Assembly (NCBI RefSeq): GCF_000250635.1
Contig: NC_016940.1
Span: forward strand, 2,776,001-2,840,000
DNA: 64,000 nucleotides
Direction: 5' to 3'
Source of the DNA: Saprospira grandis str. Lewin
GTDB taxonomy: Bacteria; Bacteroidota; Bacteroidia; Chitinophagales; Saprospiraceae
Shown here piece after piece: positions 15,143-24,500 of this stretch (position 1 is the stretch's first letter; each line of letters opens with the position of its first letter). A program made the position numbers and the translations under genes. Under the pieces are notes generated by a model. It made no database searches and was not told the DNA's origin. It saw only the letters and a program-made list of their open reading frames with translations.

Positions 15143-16216
15143 ATGAAAATTTTAAAACCTATACTCCTTTTTTGCATCCTCGCAAGCTGGGGGCAACTGC
15201 AGGCGCAGGACGTTCACTTTAGTATGTTCGACATGTCGCCAGTGAACCTCAACCCTGCCTATACGGGCTTCTACGAGGGGACCTTCCGCGTGGGAGGGAT
15301 CTACCGTAGCCAATGGCAAGGTTTGGGCACCAACAGTCTGCTTCCCCAGGGCGCTACAGGCAATGCCTATCCCACTTCTTTTTCGGGCTACAAAACGCCC
15401 TCTGCTTTTATTGATGCCCCAATTATTGGCATTAAGGGCAAAGACAAATTTGGCGCTCCCAAACATTGGTTTGGTGCGGGAATCAACTTCTATAACGACC
15501 AAGTTTCTTATTTGTCGACCCTAAAAGCAGAATTGGCCCTAGCTTTTCATGCTGGACTTGGCGCTAGAGGCAATACTCGCCTCTCTTTTGGCTTTAAAGG
15601 AGGTATCCTGCAACAGTCGGTTGGCGATGCTAGCGACTATACTTTTGAGAATGATATTACTGGCGGAACGCCCGAAACTTTTGCCAGCGGAACCGCTAGC
15701 GGAATGGATTTCTCGGCCGGTTTGATGCTTTCTCATGTGGCTGCTGGCTGGAATATCGAGGCGGGAGTGGCGTATAACCACCTCAACTCACCCGAATTGA
15801 CGATCACCAATGATGTCTATAAGCTGCCTTCTAATATTATCGGTAGTGTTCGCTCTAATATTAGCCTAACGCGCAAGTTGTCTGTTCGCCCGATGGCTTT
15901 TGTTCAGTATATGGATAAGGCCTTTGAGGCCAACTTGCAGGCCCTTGCCGCTATCCACTTCAATGACACTAAGGACTTTAATCTATTGGCAGGTGCTGGT
16001 TACCGCCTTTCTGATGCTGCCTTTGCTCGCCTCGGTCTAGAATACCGCGGCCTTTCTTTTGGCGTAGCCTATGACTTCAACCTCTCTGGCTTGTCTAATA
16101 GCAACTACAGCGGTAGCAATCTTCGTGGCCAAGGCTTCGAATTGGGCCTTACTTATATTGCCAAAATTTACAGAACTCCTGTGGTCAAAGAAATTCTCTT
16201 TAACCCTCGTTTCTAA
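15143..16216 (+). CDS. PorP/SprF family type IX secretion membrane protein
   Basis: Outer-membrane beta-barrel of 357 residues from the ATG at 15143, chosen because it opens a signal peptide (MKILKPILLFCILASWGQLQ, cleavage near QAQ); upstream codons are open to 15080 but give no signal. The mature start DVHFSMFDMSPVNLNPAYTG is the PorP/SprF signature. Repeated aromatic-ended beta strands and a terminal Phe (FNPRF) fit an outer-membrane barrel. Members of this family anchor secreted adhesins such as SprB, or act within the secretion complex. It is followed on the same strand by a PorE-like gene, supporting a role at the cell surface. Confidence 0.85.
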   Translation: MKILKPILLFCILASWGQLQAQDVHFSMFDMSPVNLNPAYTGFYEGTFRVGGIYRSQWQGLGTNSLLPQGATGNAYPTSFSGYKTPSAFIDAPIIGIKGKDKFGAPKHWFGAGINFYNDQVSYLSTLKAELALAFHAGLGARGNTRLSFGFKGGILQQSVGDASDYTFENDITGGTPETFASGTASGMDFSAGLMLSHVAAGWNIEAGVAYNHLNSPELTITNDVYKLPSNIIGSVRSNISLTRKLSVRPMAFVQYMDKAFEANLQALAAIHFNDTKDFNLLAGAGYRLSDAAFARLGLEYRGLSFGVAYDFNLSGLSNSNYSGSNLRGQGFELGLTYIAKIYRTPVVKEILFNPRF

Positions 16217-16233: not shown

Positions 16234-16352
16234 GGGGCCTCCGCAGCAAAGCTGCGGCGCTACGCTACGGGGCTCGCTATTCGCTCGGCCCTTCGGCGCT
16301 AAAGCGCCTCGGTCTGGCCCTGCGGGCCACCCGCTCCGCATCGCTAGGCCGC
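16234..16352 (+). repeat. Modular interspersed element, copy 6 (class B)
   Basis: Head GGGGCCTCCGCAGC starts 17 bases after the PorP-like stop. Core CTCGCTATTCGCTCGGCCCT, variable stem GGCGC-TAAA-GCGCC, GGTCTG with hairpin GGCCC-TGC-GGGCC, tail CATCGCTAGGCC pairing with GGCCT of the head. It lies between porP- and porE-like genes. Confidence 0.85.
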
Positions 16353-16450: not shown

Positions 16451-18736
16451 ATGAAAAACTATTTCCTATCGGCCTTGCTAGTTTTACTAGCCATGCCATT
16501 CGTCTGGGGACAACCTGTGGGCAACAACCAACCCACAGAAAAACTAGAAGAAATTGCCTCTAGTAACCTCGAACGCTACGATACTTGGAACGCCTTGGAT
16601 TACTTCAAACAGGTCCGCGAACGCAAACCCAATGATGTAAAGGCCAATTATGACGTAGCCTACACCTATTTCCTCCTTCGCGATTATACTTCTGCCGAAA
16701 AAGAATTTCAGCAGCTCATCGAACTCGATAAGGAAAACTTTATGCCTATGGCTGGCTGGTACTATGCCCAAAGCCTAAAGCTAGCCGGCAAGTACAGCGA
16801 TTGTATTCCCGCCTTTGAAAGCTTCAAAAGCAAATACAATGGCGAAGATGTCGACCGCATGAAAACTTTGGCCGATGTGGAAATCGCAGGAGCCAAATGG
16901 GCCCAAACTATGACTTCTCCTAAAGAGGAACTCATTATTAAGCCCCTAGATAAAACTATCAACTCTCCACTTATGGAGAATTACGCTTACCCTATTGGCC
17001 GTAATAAAATTGTCTTCTCTGCCCTCCGTGGCGATAGCATTATCGTTTTGGAAGATGCGGAAGAAGAAGCTAAGTTTACTCGTATCTTTGTGGCCGAAAA
17101 AGCAGAAGATGGCGAAAAATGGGAAAAAGTAGAGCCCTTTAGCGCTTCTACACTAGCCGCTGAAGGTTTTCATGTGGTTAACCCTACCTTTAATAAGGAT
17201 ATGAACCGCTTTTTCTTCGCTAAAGCACAGTTGGTAGGTAACCTCCTTCAAAATAGTAAGATTTATGGCGCAGGCTATGACGGTACTAATGTTACTGAGC
17301 CTACTGCTCTTGATTTTAATGACGGAGAATATAGCTGCAAAAACCCCGCAGTCGGTATGCTAGATGGCCAAGAAGTACTTTTCTTCGCTTCTAATATGCC
17401 CGGCGGTAAAGGGGGCTTCGATATCTGGTATGCAGAAATCAATGCCGACGGAACTACTCGCACGCCCCTCAACCTAGAAGCCGTAAATACGGTAGGTGAC
17501 GAAAGCCACCCCTTCTTTGATGAGCGCGATAACCGTCTCTATTTTGCTTCTAATGGCCACCCCGGTATGGGCGGTATCGACCTTTTCCAAACAGAGCGCA
17601 ATGAAGCAGGAAATTGGTCTGCTGTAGAAAATATGGGACCTGGCTTTAATACTAGCGTAGATGAATTTGGTTTCATCGTGACTCGCGAAGGCCGCGATGA
17701 TTGCTTTGGCTACCTGATCTCTAACCGTGAAGGAAGTAGCGGAGCTGTACAAAGCCAAACTTCTACCGATGATATCTTCTCTATCTTGATGCCCGAACGT
17801 TGTGATGTTGATCTAATCGTTAAGGTAACTGATGATAAAACAGGAGAAGAAGTAGTAGGTGCTACGGTGAAAATTGTAGACAAAGAAACTGGTGAAGTAG
17901 TTGCCGAACAAACCAATACAGAGAATAACAAATTTGTATTTCCTCTAGAACAAGGTAAAGAGTATGAAGTAGTGGCTAGCAAAGAAGGCTGGGAAGCTGG
18001 CTCTAGCACTTCTGCAGATACTCGCCGCCCCGCTCTAGAAAATCGCTTTGGTAGCGTTTCTGGCCCTATGGAATGGGAAGAAACCACTACCTTGAAAGAA
18101 GCTGGCTTGATGGTGCAAACCTTTGACCGCAACAGCAAAGCTCCTTTGAATGGCGTAACCGTAATGGTTTATGATGGTGATAAGTTGGTTGAGGAAAAAA
18201 CAATGACTGATGGCAATCAGTTTAGCTTTATCTTGGACAACAACAAAGAGTACAAAATCAAAGCTCGTCTAGAAGGCTATATTGGCGACTTTAAGACCGT
18301 AAAAGCTACTGAGGCTAAAGAGATGCACAAATTGTATTTGGCTCCTCCTCCCTTGTTTGTAAATGTATTGTTCGACTTTAATAAGTCGAATATCCGTACT
18401 GGCGCAGCCGATACCTTGGACCGCATTGCTGAAGTAATGACTGACTACCCCGAAATGGTAGTAGAAGTACGTGGTTTTACCGATGCTGTTGGTTCTGATA
18501 GCTATAACGATCGTCTTTCTAAGCGTCGTTCTAAAGCAGCCATTGACTACCTAGTAGAAAAAGGCATTGCTGCTGAGCGCTTGATCTCTAAAGGTTTTGG
18601 TGAAGCGGAGCCTGTTGCACCCAACGAAAACGAAGATGGTAGCGATAACCCTGAAGGTCGTCAGCTCAACCGTCGTGTAGAGTTCAAGATTATTGAAGGT
18701 AATGTTGGCGCTGTAGAAACAGAAAAAAAAAACTAA
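16451..18736 (+). CDS. PorE-like T9SS/OmpA-family protein (TPR, propeller, regulatory domains, OmpA)
   Basis: Cell-envelope protein of 761 residues with the PorE domain order: signal peptide (MKNYFLSALLVLLAMPFVWG), TPR region (about 35-115), a PD40/WD40-type propeller (about 165-420, with EVLFFASNMPGGKGGFDIWY and NRLYFASNGHPGMGGIDLFQ), two carboxypeptidase-regulatory-like domains (about 455-540 and 560-625) and a peptidoglycan-binding OmpA domain (about 640-755, FDFNKSNIRTGAADTLDRIA and GFTDAVGSDSYNDRLSKRRS). PorE is known to tie the type IX secretion machine to peptidoglycan. It follows a PorP-like gene. The gene ends in a run of ten A (18723-18732); a -1 slip there would extend the protein by a DUF1573 domain (18733-19095). 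Confidence 0.88.
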   Translation: MKNYFLSALLVLLAMPFVWGQPVGNNQPTEKLEEIASSNLERYDTWNALDYFKQVRERKPNDVKANYDVAYTYFLLRDYTSAEKEFQQLIELDKENFMPMAGWYYAQSLKLAGKYSDCIPAFESFKSKYNGEDVDRMKTLADVEIAGAKWAQTMTSPKEELIIKPLDKTINSPLMENYAYPIGRNKIVFSALRGDSIIVLEDAEEEAKFTRIFVAEKAEDGEKWEKVEPFSASTLAAEGFHVVNPTFNKDMNRFFFAKAQLVGNLLQNSKIYGAGYDGTNVTEPTALDFNDGEYSCKNPAVGMLDGQEVLFFASNMPGGKGGFDIWYAEINADGTTRTPLNLEAVNTVGDESHPFFDERDNRLYFASNGHPGMGGIDLFQTERNEAGNWSAVENMGPGFNTSVDEFGFIVTREGRDDCFGYLISNREGSSGAVQSQTSTDDIFSILMPERCDVDLIVKVTDDKTGEEVVGATVKIVDKETGEVVAEQTNTENNKFVFPLEQGKEYEVVASKEGWEAGSSTSADTRRPALENRFGSVSGPMEWEETTTLKEAGLMVQTFDRNSKAPLNGVTVMVYDGDKLVEEKTMTDGNQFSFILDNNKEYKIKARLEGYIGDFKTVKATEAKEMHKLYLAPPPLFVNVLFDFNKSNIRTGAADTLDRIAEVMTDYPEMVVEVRGFTDAVGSDSYNDRLSKRRSKAAIDYLVEKGIAAERLISKGFGEAEPVAPNENEDGSDNPEGRQLNRRVEFKIIEGNVGAVETEKKN

Positions 18737-19095
18737 CTGAATCGGCAGCTCCTATTCAAGAGAATAAGCGGCCGAAGACAACAGTAAAGTTTATTGAGCC
18801 AGAACTAAAGCTGGGAGAACTCAAATATGGAGAAGTTAAGGAAGCGACTATTGAATTTGTCAATACTGGGACCGAAGACTTGAAGATTGAGTTTGTGCAA
18901 GGCGGATGCAGCTGTACGGAGCCTACTTCATGGAGCCGCAAAGCCATTGCCCCGGGCCAAAAAGGCTATGTCAAAATTAAGTTTGACTCTTCTAAGGCCG
19001 ATATTAAAAAAGGCTACGAATCTGCTGTAGAGCTTTATGGAAATGTAGAAGGTGACCTTCTGCTGTACTATATTAGCGCAGATATTGTAAAATAG
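18733..19095 (+). CDS. DUF1573 domain in the -1 frame after porE (probable frameshift extension)
   Basis: The frame encodes about 120 residues of clear DUF1573 type: LGELKYGEVKEATIEFVNTG, LKIEFVQGGCSCTEP, then IAPGQKGYVKIKFDSSKADI. No ATG or GTG start lies upstream; the only bacterial-type start, TTG at 18880, would cut the domain in half. There is also no signal peptide, although DUF1573 proteins are normally exported. The frame overlaps the A10 run that ends the PorE-like frame. Reading gaa aaa aaa aaa cta instead of gaa aaa aaa aac taa joins PorE to this domain. Either programmed -1 slippage, a recent frameshift, or a homopolymer sequencing error explains this. A terminator follows at 19111. 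Confidence 0.72.
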   Translation, partial: LTESAAPIQENKRPKTTVKFIEPELKLGELKYGEVKEATIEFVNTGTEDLKIEFVQGGCSCTEPTSWSRKAIAPGQKGYVKIKFDSSKADIKKGYESAVELYGNVEGDLLLYYISADIVK

Positions 19096-19110: not shown

Positions 19111-19150
19111 AAAACCCCTAAACGACTAGTTTGCGTTTAGGGGTTTTTTT
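19111..19150 (+). terminator. Intrinsic terminator after the DUF1573 domain
   Basis: The stem CCCCTAAACG / CGTTTAGGGG with a 9-base loop is followed by seven T. It closes the porE-DUF1573 unit, showing the DUF1573 segment lies within the same transcript as porE unless another promoter exists. Confidence 0.85.
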
Positions 19151-19164
19151 ATGTTTAGGGCCAG

Positions 19165-19357
19165 CTTGTTTTGCGTCTTGCAGGCCCGGAGGGGCCGCAG
19201 GCCACAACAAGGCCTTTAGGCCGCAGTTCGACGACCAAAGGGAGTAACCGATGGAAGGCAGTGGCCCGCAGGGCCAGACCGAGCCGCTGAAAGCGGTGAA
19301 GGGCCGAGCAGACCTGCGAGCTGCCGAACGTAGCGCCTGCCGTAGGCAGGAGGCCCC
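19165..19357 (-). repeat. Modular interspersed element, copy 7 (class B with extra module)
   Basis: Minus-strand head GGGGCCTCCTGCCTACGG at 19357, 14 bases before the next ATG. Core CTCGCAGGTCTGCTCGGCCC, variable stem CCGCT-TTC-AGCGG, hairpin GGCCC-TGC-GGGCC. The class B tail is altered: CATCG runs into the GTTACTCCCTTTGGTCGTCG module (19224-19248), followed by GGCC-TAAA-GGCC and TTGTTGTGGCC. This is one of two copies where the direct head-tail pair is displaced. Confidence 0.82.
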
Positions 19358-24347: not shown

Positions 24348-24500
24348 GGGGCCCGCGGCCAGCTAGGCTTCGCCTAGCTCGGCCGCCGCTATGCTGCGGG
24401 GCTCGCAGGTCTGCTCGGCCCTGCGTTTTTTTCGCTGCGCTCAAAAAACTTGGTCTGGCCTTCGGCCACCCGCTCCGCAGCGCTGGGCCTGCCCGCCGCA
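24348..24500 (+). repeat. Modular interspersed element, copy 8 (class C)
   Basis: Head GGGGCCCGCGGCC starts 8 bases after the upstream stop, with inner hairpin AGCTAGGC-TTC-GCCTAGCT and the class C block CCGCTATGCTGCGGGGCTCG. Core CAGGTCTGCTCGGCCCT, variable A/T stem GTTTTTT...AAAAAAC, GGTCTG, hairpin GGCC-TTCG-GCC, tail CAGCGCTGGGCC whose GGGCC pairs with GGCCC of the head. Confidence 0.85.

Follow-up and report, generated by a model that had tools for sequence, protein, structure and literature searches.

The A10 run at the 3′ end of a PorE-like envelope protein gene of Saprospira grandis str. Lewin is quite probably a programmed transcriptional slippage site, by which one gene would yield a PorE-like protein with and without a C-terminal DUF1573 domain. 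The run lies at positions 18723-18732 of the forward strand of the window, i.e., the whole stretch of 64,000 nucleotides that was analyzed (NC_016940.1, positions 2,776,001 to 2,840,000). An earlier note on this DNA had predicted extension of PorE by DUF1573 through slippage on the A10, and with it two protein forms. This prediction has gained comparative support from conserved runs, from selection and from relatives in which the two parts are fused or separate. The note had left ribosomal and transcriptional slippage side by side; the length of the run, its phase and its variation in base favor the transcriptional one.

The 0-frame ORF of the PorE/CHU_0125-like protein (16451-18736, forward strand) encodes the default short product of 761 aa. 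Its final codons are GAA AAA AAA AAC TAA (...ETEKKN-stop), the stop codon TAA (18734-18736) standing right behind the ten A. The -1 frame contains no stop from 18703 to 19095. Past the run it forms a C-terminal extension (18733-19095, forward strand), which consists of the linker LTESAAPIQENKRPKTT and a complete DUF1573 domain (PF07610; 18787-19080, forward strand; 64.6 bits vs. a gathering cut-off of 26.1, E 8e-18). No ATG or GTG is present upstream of the domain in this frame of the window, and the earliest candidate start is a TTG that lies 52 codons past the run, within the domain. The two frames are joined in the DNA by A11 or A8, i.e., by one A more or two fewer, or by one additional nucleotide in the RNA. 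With one A inserted, the fused product is predicted to be 881 aa long, with the residues ..EKKKLTESAAPIQENK across the junction. An A9 version of the run still gives no fusion, as its product ends in ..EKKTN. Behind the DUF1573 stop, and only there, an intrinsic terminator was read by eye at 19115-19150 (forward strand). It consists of CCCCTAAACG and CGTTTAGGGG, separated by 9 nt, with a stem of 10 bp and followed by T7; a terminator scan with a loop limit of 8 did not report this hairpin, its loop being 9 nt. The earlier note had described the gene end, the open -1 frame lacking an ATG or GTG start and a signal peptide, and the position of the terminator in the same way, and all three were confirmed. 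It had also expected A9 or A11 to give a single frame, which holds for A11, whereas A8 is the correct alternative to A9. Past the terminator, a G+C-rich stretch is found at approximately 19180-19350; another G+C-rich sequence, of 26 nt (GGCCACCCGCTCCGCA..), occurs twice in the window (16325-16350 and 24464-24489), outside the main ORFs.

By Pfam, the PorE-like protein contains TPR (weak), CarboxypepD_reg and OmpA family domains, and a beta-propeller-like region is seen via the NCBIfam alignment alone. The OmpA family domain (PF00691; residues 640-730, E 5.5e-20; 18368-18640, forward strand) is the final domain ahead of the junction. Both the PorE domain order (TPR, propeller, CRD, OmpA) and a PorP-type neighbor are found in the window. 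The latter is a PorP/SprF family type IX secretion outer-membrane protein, the partner type of PorE, encoded directly upstream (15143-16216, forward strand). The protein scores 236 bits against T9SS_PorE (NF052230; cut-off 600) and 321 bits against the CHU_0125_OmpA model of NCBIfam (cut-off 620). Since both scores fall under the cut-offs, the gene is termed PorE-like and not confirmed PorE. Inspection by eye of the N-terminus, MKNYFLSALLVLLAMPFVWGQ, revealed a signal peptide and no Cys, and hence no lipobox. The label PorE-like, already used in the earlier note, is therefore right, with the qualification that the gene stays below the PorE cut-off and lacks the lipobox. PorE is thought to link the outer-membrane PorP barrel with peptidoglycan (PMC9143113; PMC7192894). 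The window gene resembles PorE of Porphyromonas gingivalis in the order TPR, beta-propeller, CRD and OmpA-like peptidoglycan-binding domain, and in having a PorP-type partner, here encoded by the adjoining gene. The published PorE stops at OmpA, however, whereas the window gene has a predicted slippage-dependent DUF1573 extension (PMC7192894; PMC9143113).

DUF1573 is an Ig/PapD/ASH-like domain with a GCSCT motif. Its predicted structure is a beta-sandwich (mean pLDDT 80) with PapD/ASH-like domains, e.g., of HYDIN, as top PDB matches. The PapD/ASH-like fold commonly serves binding. The short form would serve as an anchor and no more; the long form may add a docking domain with the conserved GCSCT motif. 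Three of the other DUF1573 genes in the window's genome that were read begin with a signal peptide or lipobox. Since this genome and its relatives export DUF1573 by own signals, the place of the domain is predicted to be outside the cytoplasm, in the periplasm with PorE, the fusion supplying the export. This is how the earlier note had explained the export of the domain, and both the fusions in relatives and the DUF1573 genes with signal peptides agree with it. One further locus of the same genome in which an OmpA gene is followed by DUF1573 (L032) has no similar split, as DUF1573 is a separate lipoprotein gene there.

In the proposed mechanism, RNA polymerase would produce transcripts with 9, 10, 11 or more A on the run. 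Transcripts with A9 and A10 would give PorE ending one to two codons past the run, A10 yielding the 761 aa short form. One A more, or two fewer, would join PorE to DUF1573 in the 881 aa long form. The signal peptide of PorE would carry both forms into the periplasm, and the slippage rate would set the ratio of peptidoglycan-anchored PorE with and without the C-terminal Ig-like domain, both of which would be of importance to the cell.

Comparison with orthologous loci, which the earlier note had proposed, shows the split with a run to recur at 26 loci in six genera and one MAG. A search of 61 relatives located the orthologous junction in four further genomes of the window's genus and in one other genus, in every case with the same type of run and a shifted frame. 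A scan of the relatives' contigs with the window's genus left out yielded mainly distant PorE paralogs. For the wider family, loci were collected from DUF1573 matches and their OmpA and DUF1573 frames were scored by script; selection was on DUF1573 similarity and frame length, independent of the run. The resulting 61 loci comprise 26 overlapping splits, 33 in-frame fusions and two with a separate DUF1573 gene. The splits are distributed over genera g1 (6), g22 (8), g17 (4), g104 (3), g6 (2) and g30 (2) and a Chitinophagales MAG (1). All 26 have a run at the junction: A10 in 18, A9 in five, A11 in two, and T9 in the MAG (L232:4143-4180), where the split is built on T and not on A. In g6 the runs are A9 and A11. 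The flanking sequence diverges between splits; the run persists. The phase of DUF1573 is -1 in 24 splits and +1 in the remaining two (G004 and G142).

The other architectures in the family are as informative. In the 33 sampled in-frame loci, PorE and DUF1573 are contained in a single protein of about 800-950 aa. In genus g13 (L080 in G016; L246/L201 in G146) the parts are fused in frame through an A10, and adding or removing one A leads to a stop inside 8 codons, which is the mirror design, with a truncating slip. In L216 and L229, PorE is followed by a DUF1573 gene that has its own lipoprotein signal peptide. The earlier note had regarded relatives with a start and signal peptide for the domain as evidence against its proposal; they do exist, as an alternative architecture that strengthens the periplasmic argument. 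A non-fused pair without a run (L107 in G130) has non-overlapping ORFs and a separate DUF1573 gene. An order-wide search for PorE-sized open frames with DUF1573 returned none outside the window's family among the matches listed.

Runs of this kind are rare. In 108 bacterial genomes, A/T runs were found to be avoided in coding regions, which is evident at nine nucleotides in a large share of them (PMC1088944). A pattern search detected 19 A10 sites in the 4.4 Mb of the window's genome, five of them in copies of one transposase-like ORF. Of the others, two look coding: the one at the PorE-DUF1573 junction and one in the tail of a cytidylate-kinase-like ORF. No A/T run of at least nine was present away from the junction in 134 kb of related ORFs. 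Given these counts and the recurrence at 26 splits, the A10 at the junction is far beyond chance. As for the other sites, the transposase-like ORF (568 codons; L145, L149, L151, L158 and L159) has its A10 mid-frame in the context AAGGAAGAAAAAAAAAACTTAAGG, another possible transcriptional slippage site at which a slip would truncate the protein. The A10 of L157 (C1:3910335) lies close to the 3′ end of the cytidylate-kinase-like ORF, where slipped frames also stop soon and the tail alone would be altered.

Purifying selection acts on the DUF1573 frame. Past the run, its omega is 0.04-0.21 wherever dS is estimable, and changes are most frequent at third positions; between G000 and G002, the changes at codon positions 1, 2 and 3 number 7, 2 and 28. 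Furthermore, the fusion phase is the only one without an early stop in each of the 26 splits, the two other frames stopping 3-11 codons from the run start. The sequence features expected of a transcriptional slippage gene are present: at least nine A/T in a coding sequence, a conserved site, an extension under selection and nearby stops in the other frames.

Among the alternative explanations, the one that survives best is -1 programmed ribosomal frameshifting on A_AAA_AAA, with uniform RNA and the long form made by the ribosome. This heptamer, which the earlier note had named as the slippery site, does lie within the run, although the real tract is longer. The -1 position of the DUF1573 frame in 24 of the 26 splits also fits, and fairly stable downstream hairpins in G000, G001, G242 and genus g104 (z about -2.5 to -5.9) could act as stimulators. 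However, seven A suffice for -1 ribosomal frameshifting, and the split runs are 9-11 throughout and never 7-8. Two genomes require +1, and g13 retains its A10 in an in-frame fusion. RNA structure 3′ of the run is not conserved: its mean z is about -1, it is absent in G003 and it is consistently strong in genus g104 only, so that a shared downstream RNA stimulator was rejected as a general feature. Because the run is at least nine, with +1 phase in G004 and G142, in-phase A10 in g13, T9 in L232 and no conserved structure, RNA polymerase is favored over the ribosome, which is unlikely to be the site of slippage. The genomes with a +1 phase or a T9 are drafts, in which an error of 1 nt could alter the phase, so that the argument for transcriptional slippage is good, not decisive. 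The hairpin of genus g104 (L103, L113 and L122; z -2.5 to -5.9) follows right after the A10; it is absent from most other genera and might tune slippage.

A second alternative is phase variation at the DNA level, in which replication alters the tract length and cells switch between PorE and PorE-DUF1573. Homopolymers of at least nine are hypermutable, and G003 and G004 are in different phases, as are G009 and G142. Yet the consensus sequences have identical lengths in G000 and G242, which belong to the same species, and in the near-identical G154 and G227, and the run is A10 in all six genomes of the window's genus. Moreover, the g13 pair alone is in the fused phase among 28 junction-run loci, while a random phase predicts about one third. 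Because the length is constant within species and genus and only this pair is in the fused phase, switching by DNA phase variation is improbable. Still less credible is a broken fusion, i.e., a fixed frameshift mutation with a DUF1573 part that has fallen out of use or is decaying. Most of the family does carry the fused form, but the shifted frame is under purifying selection across large distances, the extension has no stops in close relatives, and the breaks occur invariably at a homopolymer and have originated repeatedly.

That the homopolymer was misread or misassembled, and that the true gene is a plain in-frame fusion, is very improbable. Several platforms are error-prone on long A runs, and drafts and MAGs are numerous among the genomes; nevertheless, independent assemblies concur, including the near-complete ones of 2-3 contigs (G000, G002, G242, G154 and G274), the 0-frame stop just behind the run is kept across genera, and nearly all loci are off by the identical step. 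Production of the DUF1573 frame as a separate protein, via re-initiation or an internal start, can practically be dismissed despite a TAATG overlap in G009 and the TTG in the window, as the window's first start codon falls inside the domain and in none of the 26 splits is a start followed by a signal peptide; a separate product would therefore remain cytoplasmic, whereas other DUF1573 genes in this genome and in relatives have signal peptides.

A maximum-likelihood tree calculated from the PorE part requires six changes of the split label, at least five of them on well-supported branches. The split has therefore arisen or been lost repeatedly, the tree leaving the direction of the individual changes, gain or loss, unfixed. 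With somewhat less confidence than for slippage itself, it seems likely that, at one and the same domain junction, a single envelope protein of the window's family has changed state at least five times, from plain fusion to homopolymer-slippage gene or back. The slippage versions would include default-short ones and the mirror, default-long type, and their tracts would consist of A or of T. In evolution, RNA-polymerase slippage would then have served again and again to set what share of a peptidoglycan-anchored PorE-like protein bears the Ig-like C-terminal domain.

Comparable designs are known from other bacteria. The tssM1 gene of Citrobacter rodentium (type VI secretion) has an A11 on which transcriptional slippage was measured at 20-25% (PMC4256274). 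It also encodes an envelope- or secretion-associated protein with a stop shortly past the poly-A tract, and a one-letter slip regains a conserved C-terminal domain, giving two length variants. The protein and the phylum are different, however, and slippage is demonstrated there and rare among tssM genes, while it is predicted for the PorE-like genes and recurrent across genera. Yersinia pseudotuberculosis tssM3 has the reverse design (PMC4256274), as does genus g13. In dnaX of Thermus thermophilus (A9; PMC1088944; PMC5009743), at least nine A in the coding strand are likewise combined with stops near the run in other frames, and transcripts of variable length are made; in that gene, reading without a slip gives the long product, and the function is unrelated. 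Escherichia coli dnaX, which employs -1 ribosomal frameshifting, shares the lysine-codon slippery tract and the two C-terminal variants. It depends on a defined heptamer with stimulators, in contrast to the PorE-like run, which is longer, occurs in several phases and is without conserved structure. In the open-access literature on DUF1573, PorE and slippage in Bacteroidetes, Flavobacterium and Saprospira, no such case is reported, and the GeneTack paper and a recoding review mention neither OmpA nor Saprospira. The mechanism itself is known; as far as could be found, novelty lies in the gene concerned, in its phylum and in the recurrent origin.

Should this hold, programmed slippage would be at work in a conserved cellular gene of Bacteroidota, one that encodes an envelope protein related to the type IX secretion scaffold PorE. 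Annotation that halts at the first stop misses DUF1573 and lists the short protein alone. The fused, split, mirror and separate-gene versions within one family would constitute a natural experiment on the two lengths, in which run length could be related to product ratio, and slippage sites would be able to re-arise many times at one place.
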